From positions 1 to 33,115 of the forward strand of contig WTCA01000016.1 of the NCBI GenBank assembly GCA_013138805.1: DNA of 33,115 bases, given 5' to 3'. Below the pieces are notes generated by a model. It searched no databases. It was not told the DNA's origin and saw only the letters and a list, made by a program, of their open reading frames with translations. The first letter of the stretch is position 1. Each line of letters begins with the position of its first letter. This DNA comes from an archaeon (GTDB lineage: Archaea > EX4484-52 > GLR71). The translations under genes and the position numbers were made by a program. Positions 9,976 through 25,226 of the stretch are shown here, one piece after another.

Positions 9976-10860
9976 ATGAAATTATGCATAATCGGTCCTG
10001 AAAAGAGGTCAGAGACAGAAATAGAGCTTATGGAGACCGCAAAAGATAAGTTTGATTCTATCCTTTACGCACCGATTGAAATGATAAGGATAGAGACCTG
10101 CAAAAAAAAGGCAGTCCCGTTCCTGAAAAACACAAACCTCCTTGATTTTGATGTAATCCTTCCAAGAGTGGACAAGAAAAATGCAGATTTCTGCTATGTC
10201 CTGCTTAAGATTTTCGAGCAGCACGGCATATTCTCCTCCCTGAGCAGCGAATCAATACTTTACGGCTACAATGAGTTCCTTCTGCCTTTCATGCTCAACA
10301 ACAGGATGATACAGACCCCAAGGACATATCTTGCCATGTCGCGCCCGGCAATTGAGAAAAGCATAGGTACGATGATATATCCGGCCATCCTAAAGCTCCC
10401 TTACAGCAAGGCAGGCACAATAATCCTTGACTCACAGGAATCAGCCAAGGGTGTGGTAGACACACTTGAGACATTGAACCAGCCGATAACCCTGCAGGAG
10501 ACTTTCAGCGATGCCCTTGCAATAAGCGTTCTTGTAATAGGCAGCGATACATATGCAGTGAACAGCAAAAAAAAGAAATACAAGCTGACAAGAGATGAGA
10601 TAAGCACAGTCATGTCAGTCTCACAGCTCCTTAAAGCAGGTATATGCCAGATAAACCTGATGAAAGCCAATGATCAGGTGATGGTCGCAGGATTTAACAT
10701 AAAACCAAAAATAGGGTTCTACAGCGACATATATGAAAAAGACCTTCTTGAAAAAAGTATTTCATATCTTGAAAAGCACGCAGCTATAAAAAAGGAGAAT
10801 CCGGTATTCAACAAGTTCCTGGAATGGGTCCGTGACATGAGGTGGAAAAGCGATGAATAA
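9976..10860 (+). CDS. Degenerate ATP-grasp protein (RimK-like, probable pseudoenzyme)
   Basis: This 294-residue protein aligns along its whole length with the intact RimK-type ligase encoded next, for example DFDVILPRVDKKNADFCYVL against VDYFLPKIDAPRREYGYQV, and RMIQTPRTYLA against NIAVPKTYLF. Key residues are lost. Lys140 remains, but the glycine-rich loop reads PYSKAGT instead of GGSGGKG; the Asp-x-Arg after the strand VLVIG partner is replaced; the metal-binding Asp and Glu of the C-terminal part are Asn227 and Gly239. ATP hydrolysis is therefore unlikely. I start at ATG 9976, with GGTG (9963-9966) upstream, rather than GTG 9964. The TATA box CTTTATATAC lies near 9921-9930. It overlaps the next gene by 8 bases, so the two products are probably made together and may form a heterodimer. 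Confidence 0.75.
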   Translation: MKLCIIGPEKRSETEIELMETAKDKFDSILYAPIEMIRIETCKKKAVPFLKNTNLLDFDVILPRVDKKNADFCYVLLKIFEQHGIFSSLSSESILYGYNEFLLPFMLNNRMIQTPRTYLAMSRPAIEKSIGTMIYPAILKLPYSKAGTIILDSQESAKGVVDTLETLNQPITLQETFSDALAISVLVIGSDTYAVNSKKKKYKLTRDEISTVMSVSQLLKAGICQINLMKANDQVMVAGFNIKPKIGFYSDIYEKDLLEKSISYLEKHAAIKKENPVFNKFLEWVRDMRWKSDE

Positions 10861-20522: not shown

Positions 20523-21710
20523 TTGAACTACAATTTCTGTACCGACTATGAAGGCGAAATCACACCAATCGATGCTGCTCTTGATGTGCTTGCTAAGCTC
20601 CTTCTTAAGAGAAGGATTGTCAATTCTATAGAAGAAGGAGAAATGATATACAGGATAATAAGCGGCTTTGACGATGTAATAGCAGAGCTTGTCCGAGGCA
20701 CACAATATTCAAATGATCTGATAGAAAAGCTTGATTACACATCAGGAGACACCCTCAGATTAATTCCTGTTTTCTTCAAAGCCCTTGATATCACAGACAA
20801 AGAGCTTGCAGACATCTACAAAGAAATAGGAATACTCTACCCCGGCGCCGAAGAGGGTGCAAGAGATATCCAGGAACTTCTAGATACAGAGCTCAACATA
20901 ATATCTACAAGCTGGAATGGTTTCCTATACAGCATAAATGAAGGTATAGTGCCTAACAAAAATATTTACGGAACCCCTATGGAACTTGATAATGATAAAT
21001 ATACCCTGAATGAAGCAGAGAAAAAAATTATCTTGGATTCATTAGAAAAGATAAAGCCATTAAATGAGATTGTACTTAATGAATCAATCAAACGCATTGA
21101 AGACTTGAATCCTGAATCTTATTTAGATTATCTTATCATGAAAGGTATTTTCTTTATAGATTTCGCAAAGATACCGGCCGTCATGGAAATGTACAACGAC
21201 ATCCGCCCTATAGGAAGCAAAGAAAAGGCAAAGGCAGTGCAAGAAGCTGCAGAAAAAGCGAATGTTGAGCTGAAAGATGTCATATGCGTCGGTGACAGCT
21301 CAACAGACAAAGATATGCTCGAGCTTATCAAAGAAAACGGAGGCATAACCTGGACCCATAACGGCAAGAATTCAATCCTTGACAGCGCACACTTCAATCT
21401 GATGACTGAGAACTATTACACAACAGTGCCTCTTGTTGCAATAGCTAACAGTCAGGGCAAAGAAGGGCTGATAAAGCTGGCCAAAAGCTGGAGCTATGAT
21501 AATCTATTATCTCATCTCAAAGAATCAGTAGATGACGAAATATACAATAAGATGAAAATAACTTTAGATAATATTTTTGTGCAGCAGGAAACCCAATTTT
21601 CCACATTCACTTACCTTCCTGACTTAGACAGCGAAGAGCTCGCATCATTAAAAGATAAAAATGAGGCATTAAGAAAGAAACTCCGCGGCGAAGCAGCATT
21701 AATCCGTTAG
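20523..21710 (+). CDS. HAD-like protein, COG4030 (EhaR-like)
   Basis: The 395-residue protein starts NYNFCTDYEGEITPIDAALD, where the first HAD motif reads DxE rather than DxD, as in the archaeal COG4030 group that includes EhaR beside methanogen hydrogenases. A long helical cap follows, then VICVGDSSTDKDMLELIKENG, which supplies the acidic metal-binding motif IV. GSKEKAKAV may carry the motif III lysine. Phosphatase activity on an unknown substrate is the most likely role. No hydrogenase gene is nearby. The start is a TTG at 20523, chosen because GGTGAT (20512-20517) lies 5 bases before it. Its stop overlaps the convergent xpd stop. Confidence 0.75.
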   Translation: MNYNFCTDYEGEITPIDAALDVLAKLLLKRRIVNSIEEGEMIYRIISGFDDVIAELVRGTQYSNDLIEKLDYTSGDTLRLIPVFFKALDITDKELADIYKEIGILYPGAEEGARDIQELLDTELNIISTSWNGFLYSINEGIVPNKNIYGTPMELDNDKYTLNEAEKKIILDSLEKIKPLNEIVLNESIKRIEDLNPESYLDYLIMKGIFFIDFAKIPAVMEMYNDIRPIGSKEKAKAVQEAAEKANVELKDVICVGDSSTDKDMLELIKENGGITWTHNGKNSILDSAHFNLMTENYYTTVPLVAIANSQGKEGLIKLAKSWSYDNLLSHLKESVDDEIYNKMKITLDNIFVQQETQFSTFTYLPDLDSEELASLKDKNEALRKKLRGEAALIR

Positions 21711-23593
21711 ATCTTATAAAATTCCTCAAGCTCGCCAGATAGGTTCCCGCTCACATATATCTGTGCATCGCGCGGCAGAAGATCCTTGTAAGTGTTCCAC
21801 AGAAACCTCTTGTCCATAAGTATGATGACGCCCCTGTCAGTCTCAGACCTGATGCATCTTCCTGCAGTCTGCATCACCTTATTCATCGCAGGATAAGTAT
21901 ACCCATACTCCCAGCCTTTCTGAAACTTAAGATCATAATAATTTATCAGTGCCTGGTTCTTTATGTCCGGCTTCTCAAGAGGAAGGCCGACAACGATGAC
22001 CCCGTTCATAAGCTCTCCGGGAAAATCCACACCCTCGCTGAAATTAGCGCCGACGACAGCAAAAAGCGCAGCCCCATTACCTTTTTTAGCATAGGATGAA
22101 AATCTGTCAAAAAACCTTTTCTTGTCAGCCTTTGTCATGTCCCTCCTTTCAGCCATGATCTCCTTATCCACAGTGCTGTGTTCCATAAGGTCATAGATAG
22201 AGCCCATCATGCCGTAAGACGGGAAGAAGACGCCGATGTTTCCGGGAATATTGTTCATCACCTTTACAATGTTTCCGGCAATCTTATAGGACTGGTTCTC
22301 ACTCCTTTCAGTAAACTTGGTAGTCACATCATCCTTTATCAATATAAGCCTGTTCTCCCTCGGAAAAGGCGAGTCAAGTACAAGGCTTTCTGTAGTCTTT
22401 TCATCAAGGCCCAAAACATTCATAAACATGTCAACAGGCGTTAGAGTCCCTGACATCAGCACCACAGAATGAAGCTTTTCAAAAAGGTCTTTGGTCAGCA
22501 TGGACGGGTCAAGGCAGTCATAGCAGACATTAAATCCCGCACTTCCGTCAATATTTCTTTTCGCCCTGACAATTCTTACAAAACCTTCATCTCTTCCGCA
22601 CCATGCCGTAAGAAATCTGCCGACGCTCTCAATATAAGACACTTTCCTTTCATTTGTGACTATATCACCCGCTATAAGAAGCTCATTTATGAACTGGTTG
22701 AAATCATCAGATACATTCTTTACAATCTTTACCAGAAACTCTTTCCTCGCAAGCTTTTCCTCTTCTTTTCCTATATGCTTGATGCAGTAAGACCCTATAT
22801 CTTTTTTTAGATGCTTAAGGTCATCATAGATATCCCTGAAATTGAACTTTTCAGCCTCTTTTATCGCCTTGTCCATAAGCTCGGATGTCAGCTGTGATGA
22901 CAGAAGCTCGCGCACCCGCCCCGGAACATTATGCGCCTCGTCAATGATAAGTATTATATCTTTCATGTCACGCTCAAGCTTTGACAGGAACATCTTCTGA
23001 ACAAAAGGATGCAGCATATGATAATAATCTGCTATGACCACATTCGCCTCCTTAAGGTGCAGCATAAGCATCTCATATGTGCACAGCCCTTTCCCTTCGC
23101 ACAGGTCTTTTGCATCTTCAGATGTCATGATATCATCCTTAAGATCCCCTAAGACAGACTGGCATATATCAGATATATCGCCCGACTTCCGAAACATCTT
23201 CTTGTAGTATATGCACTTGCCGCTCTCCTTCATCTTTTTGCAGAATTCAGACACATTTTCTGAGCTCATCATCTTGACATCATCAAACCTGCACAGCCAC
23301 CTCTTCCCCACAATGTTTGCGACATGGATGTCAGCTTCAGTATTCTTTTCCTTTATCGACTTCAGTGTCTCAATAACAATCCTGTGCTGCATATGCCTGG
23401 GTGTAAGAAAGACGACAGTCTTGCCGTTCTCGGCAGCATATTTCACAGCCGGAGCAAGCGCAGATACAGTCTTGCCTATCCCTGTCGGCGCCTGGACAGC
23501 AAGATTCTTCTCTTCTTCAAGCGCTTTTGAAAGCATGTCCATGAACCTGTCTTGACCTTGCCTTTTGGTGTCAAACGGGAAGAAATTATGCAT
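21707..23593 (-). CDS. xpd: XPD/Rad3-family iron-sulfur DNA helicase
   Basis: XPD is a 5'-3' superfamily 2 helicase. The protein has a Q-motif region (FPFDTKRQGQDRFMDML), P-loop APTGIGKT, four cysteines suited to the [4Fe-4S] cluster (KRWLCRF, SGKCIYYKK, DLCEGKG, LCTYEM), DEAH box IIDEAHN, and motif VI QTAGRCIRSETDRG. Two ATGs compete: 23602 and 23593. I prefer 23593 (MHNFFPFDTK), as the TATA-like CATTTAAAT is about 28 bases before it, giving a leaderless mRNA; the first would leave only about 19. The 62 bases spanning this start and promoter occur again at 24312-24373. Confidence 0.9.
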   Translation of the reverse strand: MHNFFPFDTKRQGQDRFMDMLSKALEEEKNLAVQAPTGIGKTVSALAPAVKYAAENGKTVVFLTPRHMQHRIVIETLKSIKEKNTEADIHVANIVGKRWLCRFDDVKMMSSENVSEFCKKMKESGKCIYYKKMFRKSGDISDICQSVLGDLKDDIMTSEDAKDLCEGKGLCTYEMLMLHLKEANVVIADYYHMLHPFVQKMFLSKLERDMKDIILIIDEAHNVPGRVRELLSSQLTSELMDKAIKEAEKFNFRDIYDDLKHLKKDIGSYCIKHIGKEEEKLARKEFLVKIVKNVSDDFNQFINELLIAGDIVTNERKVSYIESVGRFLTAWCGRDEGFVRIVRAKRNIDGSAGFNVCYDCLDPSMLTKDLFEKLHSVVLMSGTLTPVDMFMNVLGLDEKTTESLVLDSPFPRENRLILIKDDVTTKFTERSENQSYKIAGNIVKVMNNIPGNIGVFFPSYGMMGSIYDLMEHSTVDKEIMAERRDMTKADKKRFFDRFSSYAKKGNGAALFAVVGANFSEGVDFPGELMNGVIVVGLPLEKPDIKNQALINYYDLKFQKGWEYGYTYPAMNKVMQTAGRCIRSETDRGVIILMDKRFLWNTYKDLLPRDAQIYVSGNLSGELEEFYKI

Positions 23594-23633
23594 AGAAAAC
23601 ATCTATAAGGAAAATGATTTAAATGTATTGAAC
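23572..23633. repeat. 62-bp direct repeat, copy 1 (native xpd start region)
   Basis: This stretch covers the first codons of xpd, its start codon and its TATA element. It is identical to 24312-24373, exactly 740 bases away, with mismatches on both sides. It flanks the toxin-antitoxin module on the left. Confidence 0.9.
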
Positions 23634-23708
23634 AACTGCAATGATAAAGTATCTATATCTATACAAAAAACGCGAATCTATTGTCTGCACTGCAGTATTT
23701 AAGAATCT

Positions 23709-23969
23709 CTATAAATATGCGATGTCATGGTGCTCAATGTCAATGAATTCAATTAGGTTCTTGCTTTCATGTACTCTGTATGTCAGAATAAAGGAATTGC
23801 CTACATGTACCCTAAAACGGTTTTCATATTTTAAGTGTTTGTAATGATAAGGGTTTTGTATGATTTCCATAATTTTTTTACGGCATGAACGCAAAAGAAC
23901 CGGGTCTCTCTTTCTTAACTTGCTAAATTTCCTTTCAAGTGTCTGCGTCAACTCGAATTCATAAGGCAT
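23709..23969 (-). CDS. RelE/ParE-family toxin
   Basis: The 86-residue protein has the RelE/ParE fold order: MPYEFELTQTLERKFSKLRK, DPVLLRSCRKKIMEIIQNP, YKHLKYENRFRVHVGNSFIL and a C-terminal FIDIEHHDIAYL, the HHDxxY ending common in archaeal members. RelE toxins cut mRNA on the ribosome. I start at MPYEFEL (ATG 23969), 13 bases after the antitoxin stop; the frame is open further upstream but inside the antitoxin gene. Antitoxin first, toxin second, close together is the standard order. Arg and His residues are present for catalysis, but which ones act is not clear from sequence. Confidence 0.85.
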   Translation of the reverse strand: MPYEFELTQTLERKFSKLRKRDPVLLRSCRKKIMEIIQNPYHYKHLKYENRFRVHVGNSFILTYRVHESKNLIEFIDIEHHDIAYL

Positions 23970-23982
23970 AAGAAACACAGCC

Positions 23983-24198
23983 TTATAGACCAAAGCGTTT
24001 ATCAAAATCCTCGATATTTTTGAAATGAACGCGCTTGTCTTCTTTTTCAATCTTTTCCAATTTTTTGATGTACTCAGGGTTTAATGTCTTATGTATATCT
24101 GTGTCTATCTCGTTTACTGTGGCTTCAATCTGAAGTATCTTATCTTTCAGAAAGTCCAGATCATTTTTTATATCATTCATCGTGGTTGCCTGAGACAT
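23983..24198 (-). CDS. Antitoxin partner of the RelE-type toxin
   Basis: The 71-residue, mostly helical, charged protein begins MSQATTMNDIKNDLDFLKDK and ends HFKNIEDFDKRFGL, a layout seen in archaeal antitoxins paired with RelE: an N-terminal dimerising coiled segment and a C-terminal toxin-binding tail. A clear ribosome site AAGGTGAT lies just before the ATG, and ATATATAAAG (about 24231-24240, minus strand) is its TATA element. No DNA-binding helix-turn-helix is obvious. Confidence 0.75.
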   Translation of the reverse strand: MSQATTMNDIKNDLDFLKDKILQIEATVNEIDTDIHKTLNPEYIKKLEKIEKEDKRVHFKNIEDFDKRFGL

Positions 24199-24237
24199 TA
24201 TATCACCTTATTTTTATATTGCTTTTAAATCTTTATA

Positions 24238-24315
24238 TATTATTCTTTGTGATTTACTCGGTATCTTCCCGCCAAATATTATTCTTTGTGATTTACTCGG
24301 TATCTTCCCGCCAAA
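24238..24315. repeat. Perfect 39-bp tandem repeat, two copies
   Basis: The units 24238-24276 and 24277-24315 are identical; each starts TATTATTCTTTG and ends CTTCCCGCCAAA. They lie between the antitoxin promoter and the second xpd-start copy. Their length, a multiple of three, keeps the chimeric frame open. Confidence 0.95.
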
Positions 24316-24322
24316 CGGGAAG
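24304..24322. other. Perfect 7-bp hairpin at the repeat junction
   Basis: CTTCCCG (24304-24310) pairs with CGGGAAG (24316-24322) around CCAAA. One arm belongs to the 39-base unit and the other to the copied xpd sequence, so the inverted repeat exists only at this junction. Confidence 0.6.
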
Positions 24323-24373
24323 AAATTATGCATAGAAAACATCTATAAGGAAAATGATTTAAATGTATTGAAC
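24312..24373. repeat. 62-bp direct repeat, copy 2 (duplicated xpd start region)
   Basis: Identical to 23572-23633. It shares CAAA with the end of the 39-base unit, which may be the microhomology where the join occurred. Beyond it lies the RNase P operon promoter region, probably the original neighbour of xpd. Confidence 0.9.
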
Positions 24374-24473
24374 TGTTAATATCTAAATAATCTCTCTATT
24401 TCCTTTTAAATCCTCACACCCATGTCATCTATTTAAAAAGAAAAATGCAAATATTTATCAGACAGTGATACCT

Positions 24474-25226
24474 ATGGAGCGAAAATTCTGCGACCTGCAC
24501 ATATATTCAGACCTGTCCATAGGCGAAAGCAGCATCAAAGATATCATAAGCATGGCCGAAAAACTTAACCTCTCATCAATCTGCATAATTGACCATGTCA
24601 AAGACAAGAACAAGGACAATATCAGCAGGCTCAAAGAAGAGATAAAAAAACAGAAACCCAAGATAGAAGTCCTTGCAGGGGTAGAGATAAGCACAGAAGA
24701 CACAGAGATTCTCAAAAGGCAGGTAAGCCGCCTAAGAGAAACAGCAGACATTGTGATAGTCTCCGGCGGCTCCTCAAAGATAAACAGGGCAGCTGTCGAA
24801 GACGCAAGAGTTGACATACTTGCGCATCCTGAAAGAGGAAGGCGCGATTCAGGTCTTGACGATGTCATGGCAAGACTTGCCGCAAAGAATAATGTGGCAA
24901 TCGAGCTCAATTTCAAGATGATCCTTAACACTTACAGAAAGATAAGGTCACACATGCTTGCCCATATGAGAGACAATGCAGAGCTTGCACTAAAATTTAA
25001 CGCACCGATTGTAATATCCGGCGGCGCAGAAAAAGCTTTTGAGATGCGCACAGGCAGGGAGCTCGCATCCCTTGGCACTCTTGTCGGCCTCGAGCTTGCG
25101 AAATCTCTTGACTGCATCTCATCAGTGCCTGAAAGCATGATAGCTCATATAAGAAAAGTAAAAAGTGAAAACCATATAATGCCGGGCGTAGAAATAATAG
25201 GAAAAAAGAACAGCAAAAAGAGATGA
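24474..25226 (+). CDS. rnp3: RNase P protein Rpp30 (p30, PHP-like fold)
   Basis: Rpp30 pairs with Pop5 and helps the RNase P RNA process tRNA 5' ends. From the ATG at 24474 the protein has 250 residues with the family's TIM-barrel-like pattern: KFCDLHIYSDLSIGESSIKD, NLSSICIIDHV, IEVLAGVEIST, DIVIVSGGSSKINRAAVED, VDILAHPERGRRDSGLDDV, VAIELNFKMIL and APIVISGGAEKAFEMRTGRE. A GTG at 24465 is an alternative start, but the archaeal family usually begins close to the first strand. The stop overlaps the next start (ATGA), so Rpp30 and Pop5 are made from one message. An AT-rich ATTTAAAAAG or AAATATTTATC upstream can serve as promoter. Confidence 0.9.
   Translation: MERKFCDLHIYSDLSIGESSIKDIISMAEKLNLSSICIIDHVKDKNKDNISRLKEEIKKQKPKIEVLAGVEISTEDTEILKRQVSRLRETADIVIVSGGSSKINRAAVEDARVDILAHPERGRRDSGLDDVMARLAAKNNVAIELNFKMILNTYRKIRSHMLAHMRDNAELALKFNAPIVISGGAEKAFEMRTGRELASLGTLVGLELAKSLDCISSVPESMIAHIRKVKSENHIMPGVEIIGKKNSKKR

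Follow-up and report, generated by a model that had tools for sequence, protein, structure and literature searches.

A predicted RelE/YafQ-type toxin-antitoxin module between long direct repeats of the xpd gene start in a DPANN archaeon

Insertion with long target duplication is known for restriction-modification (RM) systems from the work of Nobusato et al. (2000, Gene 259:99) and Furuta et al. (2010, NAR 38:2428), as cited in PMC3874152, PMC3031569 and PMC1643837. According to these later texts, the phenomenon was first seen on comparing two H. pylori genomes (PMC1643837) and is associated with RM genes (PMC1643837, PMC3031569); the flanking duplications are described as long and variable, "in the order of 100 bp" (PMC3874152). 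Toxin-antitoxin (TA) modules spread although they lack obvious vehicles, by means still to be explained. Our literature search, with most subscription journals outside its scope, returned no report of long target duplication for TA modules or for DPANN archaea.

We have analyzed a 33,115-nucleotide stretch of archaeal DNA (the window), which is contig C42 of a 1.33-Mb metagenome-assembled genome (MAG) in 103 contigs; the relatives used for comparison are MAGs of Candidatus Aenigmatarchaeota. Our preferred explanation, which we consider probable, is that insertion with long target duplication brought a mobile RelE/YafQ-type TA module to its place immediately upstream of xpd. As far as the later citing texts describe the RM cases, the two share a small addiction-type module, the lack of a transposase and long, variable duplications of host sequence. 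They differ in cargo, here a type II TA module, and in host, here a DPANN archaeon; in addition, the search for a clean single-copy empty site for the window yielded none. Since a TA module is an addiction module analogous to an RM system and it is the cargo that differs, the window is treated here as a variant of long target duplication. Classical insertion sequences and MITEs also combine insertion with target duplication, but the duplication in the window is far longer, no transposase accompanies it and no terminal inverted repeats were detected.

The repeat pair and the segment between its copies

A repeat search of the whole window identified a 62-bp direct repeat with copies at 23572-23633 and 24312-24373, 100% identical and offset by 740 bp. 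An exact repeat of this length cannot have arisen by chance in 33 kb. Half of the repeat (31 bp) precedes the xpd ATG (23602, minus strand) and the other 31 nt are the beginning of the coding sequence, so that the host's own xpd promoter and start immediately flank the gained TA genes. Copy 1 (23572-23633, minus strand) carries the native promoter, the ATG and the first 10 codons and is attached to the body of xpd (21707-23602, minus strand), an intact ORF for an XPD/Rad3-type helicase of 631 aa (Pfam Helicase_C_2, E=2e-46; DEAD_2, 1e-20; HBB, 1e-15) whose 5' end is the duplicated target. Copy 2 (24312-24373, minus strand) is an orphan xpd 5' end. It faces rnp3 (RNase P p30; 24465-25226, plus strand, with a likely ATG at 24474; PF01876, E=9e-41), the first gene of the RNase P operon, and a short spacer (24374-24425) lies between it and the conserved rnp3 promoter.

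The inserted segment that bears the TA unit (23634-24311) is 678 bp long and, with one 62-bp repeat unit, makes up the 740 bp; its G+C content is 33%, against 44% for xpd. It holds no transposase ORF, no integrase gene and no inverted repeats at its ends. Further copies of the insert or of the 62-mer were not found in the same genome, nor was the core of the 62-mer found in viral contigs. A 77% match to the 62-mer in one other genome (G026) was weak and was left as chance. In about 267 kb of the same genome (the window and 20 other contigs), every further exact direct repeat of at least 44 bp falls within a gene for a repetitive protein or next to a hairpin repeat element.

Both TA genes lie between the repeat copies, on the minus strand as is xpd. 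The toxin gene (23709-23969) encodes 86 aa and is placed by profile matches in the RelE/ParE superfamily as YafQ-like; its scores against TIGR00053 YafQ (E=1.5e-11) and RelE_StbE (E=0.004) both fall below the curated cut-offs. Most of its homologues match PF05016 ParE_toxin, and a profile built from its relatives finds the solved RelE-superfamily toxins 4nrn, 2otr and 3g5o. Residues K17, K31, K44, H55, H81 and D82 are invariant. The predicted antitoxin gene (23983-24198, 71 aa) is located 13 bp upstream of the toxin gene and is DUF2683-like (PF10884, E=2.9e-5, below cut-off). Homologous ORFs with a recognisable C-terminal motif are found upstream of toxins in several other genomes, at loci L066, L067, L069, L076 and L085. 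On this sequence evidence the pair is a predicted RelE/YafQ-type type II TA module. It resembles known members in toxin family, antitoxin-toxin order, the 13-bp spacing and the conserved His, Asp and Lys positions, and appears to depart from them in its DUF2683-like antitoxin, with a score under the Pfam cut-off. A putative TTTAAAA promoter-like box and a ribosome site precede the antitoxin gene; the pair thus apparently has signals of its own, and the copied xpd promoter need not serve it.

A first-pass annotation of the window had described a RelE toxin-antitoxin module flanked by a perfect 62-base repeat of the xpd start at an offset of 740. The repeat is confirmed, and the profile and structural-relative matches support a two-gene module of the predicted type. 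The same annotation took a 62-base duplication to be far longer than most transposon target duplications and to point to recombination; the length indeed fits a recombination or repair event. Beyond that account, the present analysis adds a 39-bp tandem duplication and an inverted repeat near copy 2, a longer gapped alignment of the two copies, the recurrence of the architecture at other archaeal TA loci and its match to a published phenomenon.

The locus in related genomes

The closest relative compared (G002) has about 94% nucleotide identity to the window genome, an xpd protein that is 96-98% identical and the same order of xpd and rnp3. The repeat occurs there once, in the same place relative to xpd as copy 1 and with 1 mismatch in 62 bp, and the TA module is missing. 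Between xpd and rnp3 this genome carries instead an unrelated gene of 135 aa (L032, G002:C141, 809-1216), and because this gene occupies the spacer, G002 does not offer a clean empty site. The 135-aa gene is absent from the other genomes of the order that were searched and shows only weak similarity to YunG. Beyond the repeat (about 67 bp) the flanks align weakly with G002, neither being significantly similar; the spacer to the right of copy 2 has no significant homology to the G002 spacer (p about 0.1-0.2), and alignment resumes at 24426, in the rnp3 promoter.

Elsewhere in the group, xpd and rnp3 are not adjacent (G001, G003, G005 and G006), and no relative other than G002 was found in which the two genes adjoin. 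Different genes in the spacer of two sister species, together with the separation of xpd and rnp3 elsewhere, indicate that the spacer is young and gained different genes in each species; it looks like a site of recurrent gene gain. The TA module is absent from the six same-genus genomes searched (G001-G006), where the insert has no similarity either. The best toxin homologue, 67% identical, is found in a genome of a different family in the same order (G019), whereas xpd is 45% identical between the same two genomes. This closer match of the toxin points to horizontal transfer of the module, as judged from sequence comparison.

Three suggestions of the first-pass annotation bear on this history. 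That the module had been inserted agrees with its absence from the same-genus genomes and with the toxin match in G019, which support a foreign and recent origin. That the RNase P operon was the native neighbour of xpd holds for the pair formed by the window genome and G002, but not for the four genomes in which the genes are apart. The proposed comparison of the xpd-rnp3 region in relatives yielded, in G002, a single repeat copy and no TA module, but at a site already taken by another gene.

Long direct repeats at other archaeal toxin loci

With one toxin profile, 83 toxins of the RelE/YafQ-type family were collected in 79 archaeal DNA stretches (1.04 Mb). In this survey, which is post hoc and was designed after the first cases, 15 of the 83 toxins lay between direct repeats with a length of at least 40 bp and an identity of at least 80%; among random intervals drawn from the same DNA the share was 1.8%. 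Stricter limits, applied to the 82 toxins outside the window, left 6 with such repeats; the mean under random placement was 1.2, and none of 2000 permutations reached 6. Long, near-identical direct repeats therefore flank archaeal TA loci of this family at a frequency above chance. More than 80% of the TA loci have no bracketing repeat. Repeats at L189, L226, L228, L237 and L240 were not counted as clean, since they belong to repetitive or paralogous genes or adjoin another TA unit.

An automated screen of 1.28 Mb for duplications with one copy at a gene end and the other an orphan returned 10 events. Six of them surround a RelE toxin, one of these (L228) being doubtful for its repetitive sequence. 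In the clear cases a housekeeping gene supplies the repeat from its end; the gene body is intact, and the far copy is an orphan. The duplicated 3' ends are those of purB (L112, G012; 168 bp, 95% identity), hisG (L211, G237; 96 bp, 98%, on a contig of 151,756 bp), ftsY (L239, G197; 52 bp, 94%, on a contig of 1,390,915 bp), an ABC permease gene (L184, G381; 70 bp, 89%) and pcn (L190, G195; 56 bp, about 91%), the last of which was missed by the filter of the screen. Of the two copies at purB, the attached one is intact and the orphan has a frameshift. An empty site for this locus was sought in sisters of G012: G017 has purB with a different downstream sequence, and G022 and G025 gave no match. 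The two purB copies are about 95% alike and both are far from the G017 sequence, which points to local duplication followed by decay.

Toxins of another type show a related arrangement. Among VapC-type PIN loci, 2 of 24 were bracketed (L272 and L266). L272 (G034:C99) illustrates the principle best: the repeats at 1342-1425 and 2298-2376 (79-84 bp) on either side of vapBC each span an entire intergenic region, beginning at the 3' end of the first neighbour and reaching the start of the second, so both neighbouring genes stay whole. By locus, the duplications measure 52, 56, 62, 70, 79-84, 96, 168 and about 218 bp. They vary not only in length but also in G+C content and in sequence, with no core common to them.

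Gene-end duplications also enclose non-TA sequence, at L186, L188 (a repetitive family) and L232, and the route is thus not exclusive to TA modules. At L186 (G239:C1), the 3' end of a phosphoesterase gene is duplicated (637-704 and 1293-1360) around a predicted membrane protein of 76 aa, and no TA module was recognised there.

The shared signature around other archaeal TA pairs suggests that a route already described, though not explained, allows such modules to spread while a long part of the target is duplicated. If the association holds, the signature could serve in any genome to locate TA modules that were recently inserted, to fix the exact boundaries of each insertion and to recognise the empty sites, and the mechanism of insertion would become testable.

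Possible routes to the duplication

Under our preferred explanation, incoming DNA with just the two TA genes would have been joined into the chromosome, leaving about 62-67 bp of the target (the xpd promoter, the ATG and the first codons) on both sides. One copy would keep xpd whole while the other was stranded as an orphan beside rnp3. The product of such an event can be seen directly in the duplication, the intact xpd, the sister genome with a single copy and no module, and the same architecture at other TA loci; from this product we infer the molecular route. The duplication would have formed during the insertion itself, for example through repair of a break whose nicks were widely staggered, or by template switching during capture of foreign DNA. 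The version we prefer has DNA with the TA genes captured at a break and the ends of the break copied on both sides. Selection may then allow only those insertions to survive whose duplication preserves the neighbouring gene, and the addiction property would presumably hold the module in place thereafter.

A different route to the same arrangement starts from a small circle, integrated through one crossover or with the help of an integrase acting in trans, the attachment site being a gene end, as for a minimal cis-mobilizable element; the repeats would then be attL and attR. The outcome would be equal, an intact gene body with an orphan gene end on the far side, and the insertions are located at gene ends, which integrases prefer. 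Cis-mobilizable and integrative elements with att repeats are likewise flanked by directly repeated gene ends and leave the gene reconstituted. We nevertheless judge this route rather unlikely. The window insert has no integrase, and the repeats vary widely in length across loci and have no common core. The resemblance of the purB copies to each other and their strong divergence from G017 argue for local duplication and against an end imported from another lineage, and at L272 the duplication spans a whole intergenic region.

The inner edge of copy 2 has several features that bear on how the copies arose. An exact 39-bp tandem duplication (24237-24314, minus strand; units 24237-24275 and 24276-24314) abuts the copy, and an 8-bp inverted repeat, TCTTCCCG-CCAAA-CGGGAAGA (24303-24323, arms 24303-24310 and 24316-24323), crosses the junction between insert and copy. 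A predicted chimeric ORF of 42 codons (24214-24342, minus strand) starts at the copied xpd ATG and continues through the two 39-bp units in frame. The 7 bp that follow copy 1, AACTGCA, also follow the single repeat copy in G002, although a strict target-duplication model assigns them to the insert. When a 3-bp gap is allowed (one AAC gone from copy 2), the alignment of the copies extends 5 bp more, to ...AACTG. As AACTGCA is native in G002 and the copies align through AACTG with one 3-bp slip, the duplication was probably about 67 bp long, with a small later loss in copy 2. Either the duplication was slightly longer and copy 2 changed afterwards, or the event was other than a simple duplication.

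These features could also be read as a sign that the xpd 5' end was copied in a separate event, by template switching at the junction palindrome or by local duplication, independently of the arrival of the TA module. The tandem duplication and the inverted repeat would then be local copying errors, and the G002 sequence supports AACTGCA as native next to copy 1. We find this quite improbable, since two independent events would have to bracket the module exactly, and the excess of gene-end duplications at other TA loci would be left unexplained. Assembly error is an unlikely source of the repeat and, although the locus is known from the assembly of a 103-contig MAG, an artefact or a merging of strain variants is very improbable, since other genomes have the same architecture with diverged copies (86-98%), beyond what an assembler can make, and two such loci (L211 and L239) are on contigs of more than 150 kb.

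Insertion with long target duplication may extend beyond the window. We propose, tentatively and with less than even confidence, a general route that needs no transposase and by which TA modules of archaea travel as nothing more than their two genes, with duplication of 50-200 bp of the target; it would be tolerated only where the neighbouring gene stays intact. Long target duplication would then be a hallmark of selfish addiction modules, both TA and RM, generally.

A duplication of similar length was observed around a different kind of element. At L102 (G000:C15), a short hairpin repeat element lies between two copies (10566-10631 and 10678-10744; 66-67 bp, 97%) of 3'-terminal sequence from a methionine aminopeptidase gene, and about ten related hairpin elements are dispersed across the genome. 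Long target duplication may therefore also accompany a MITE/REP-like element in this genome.
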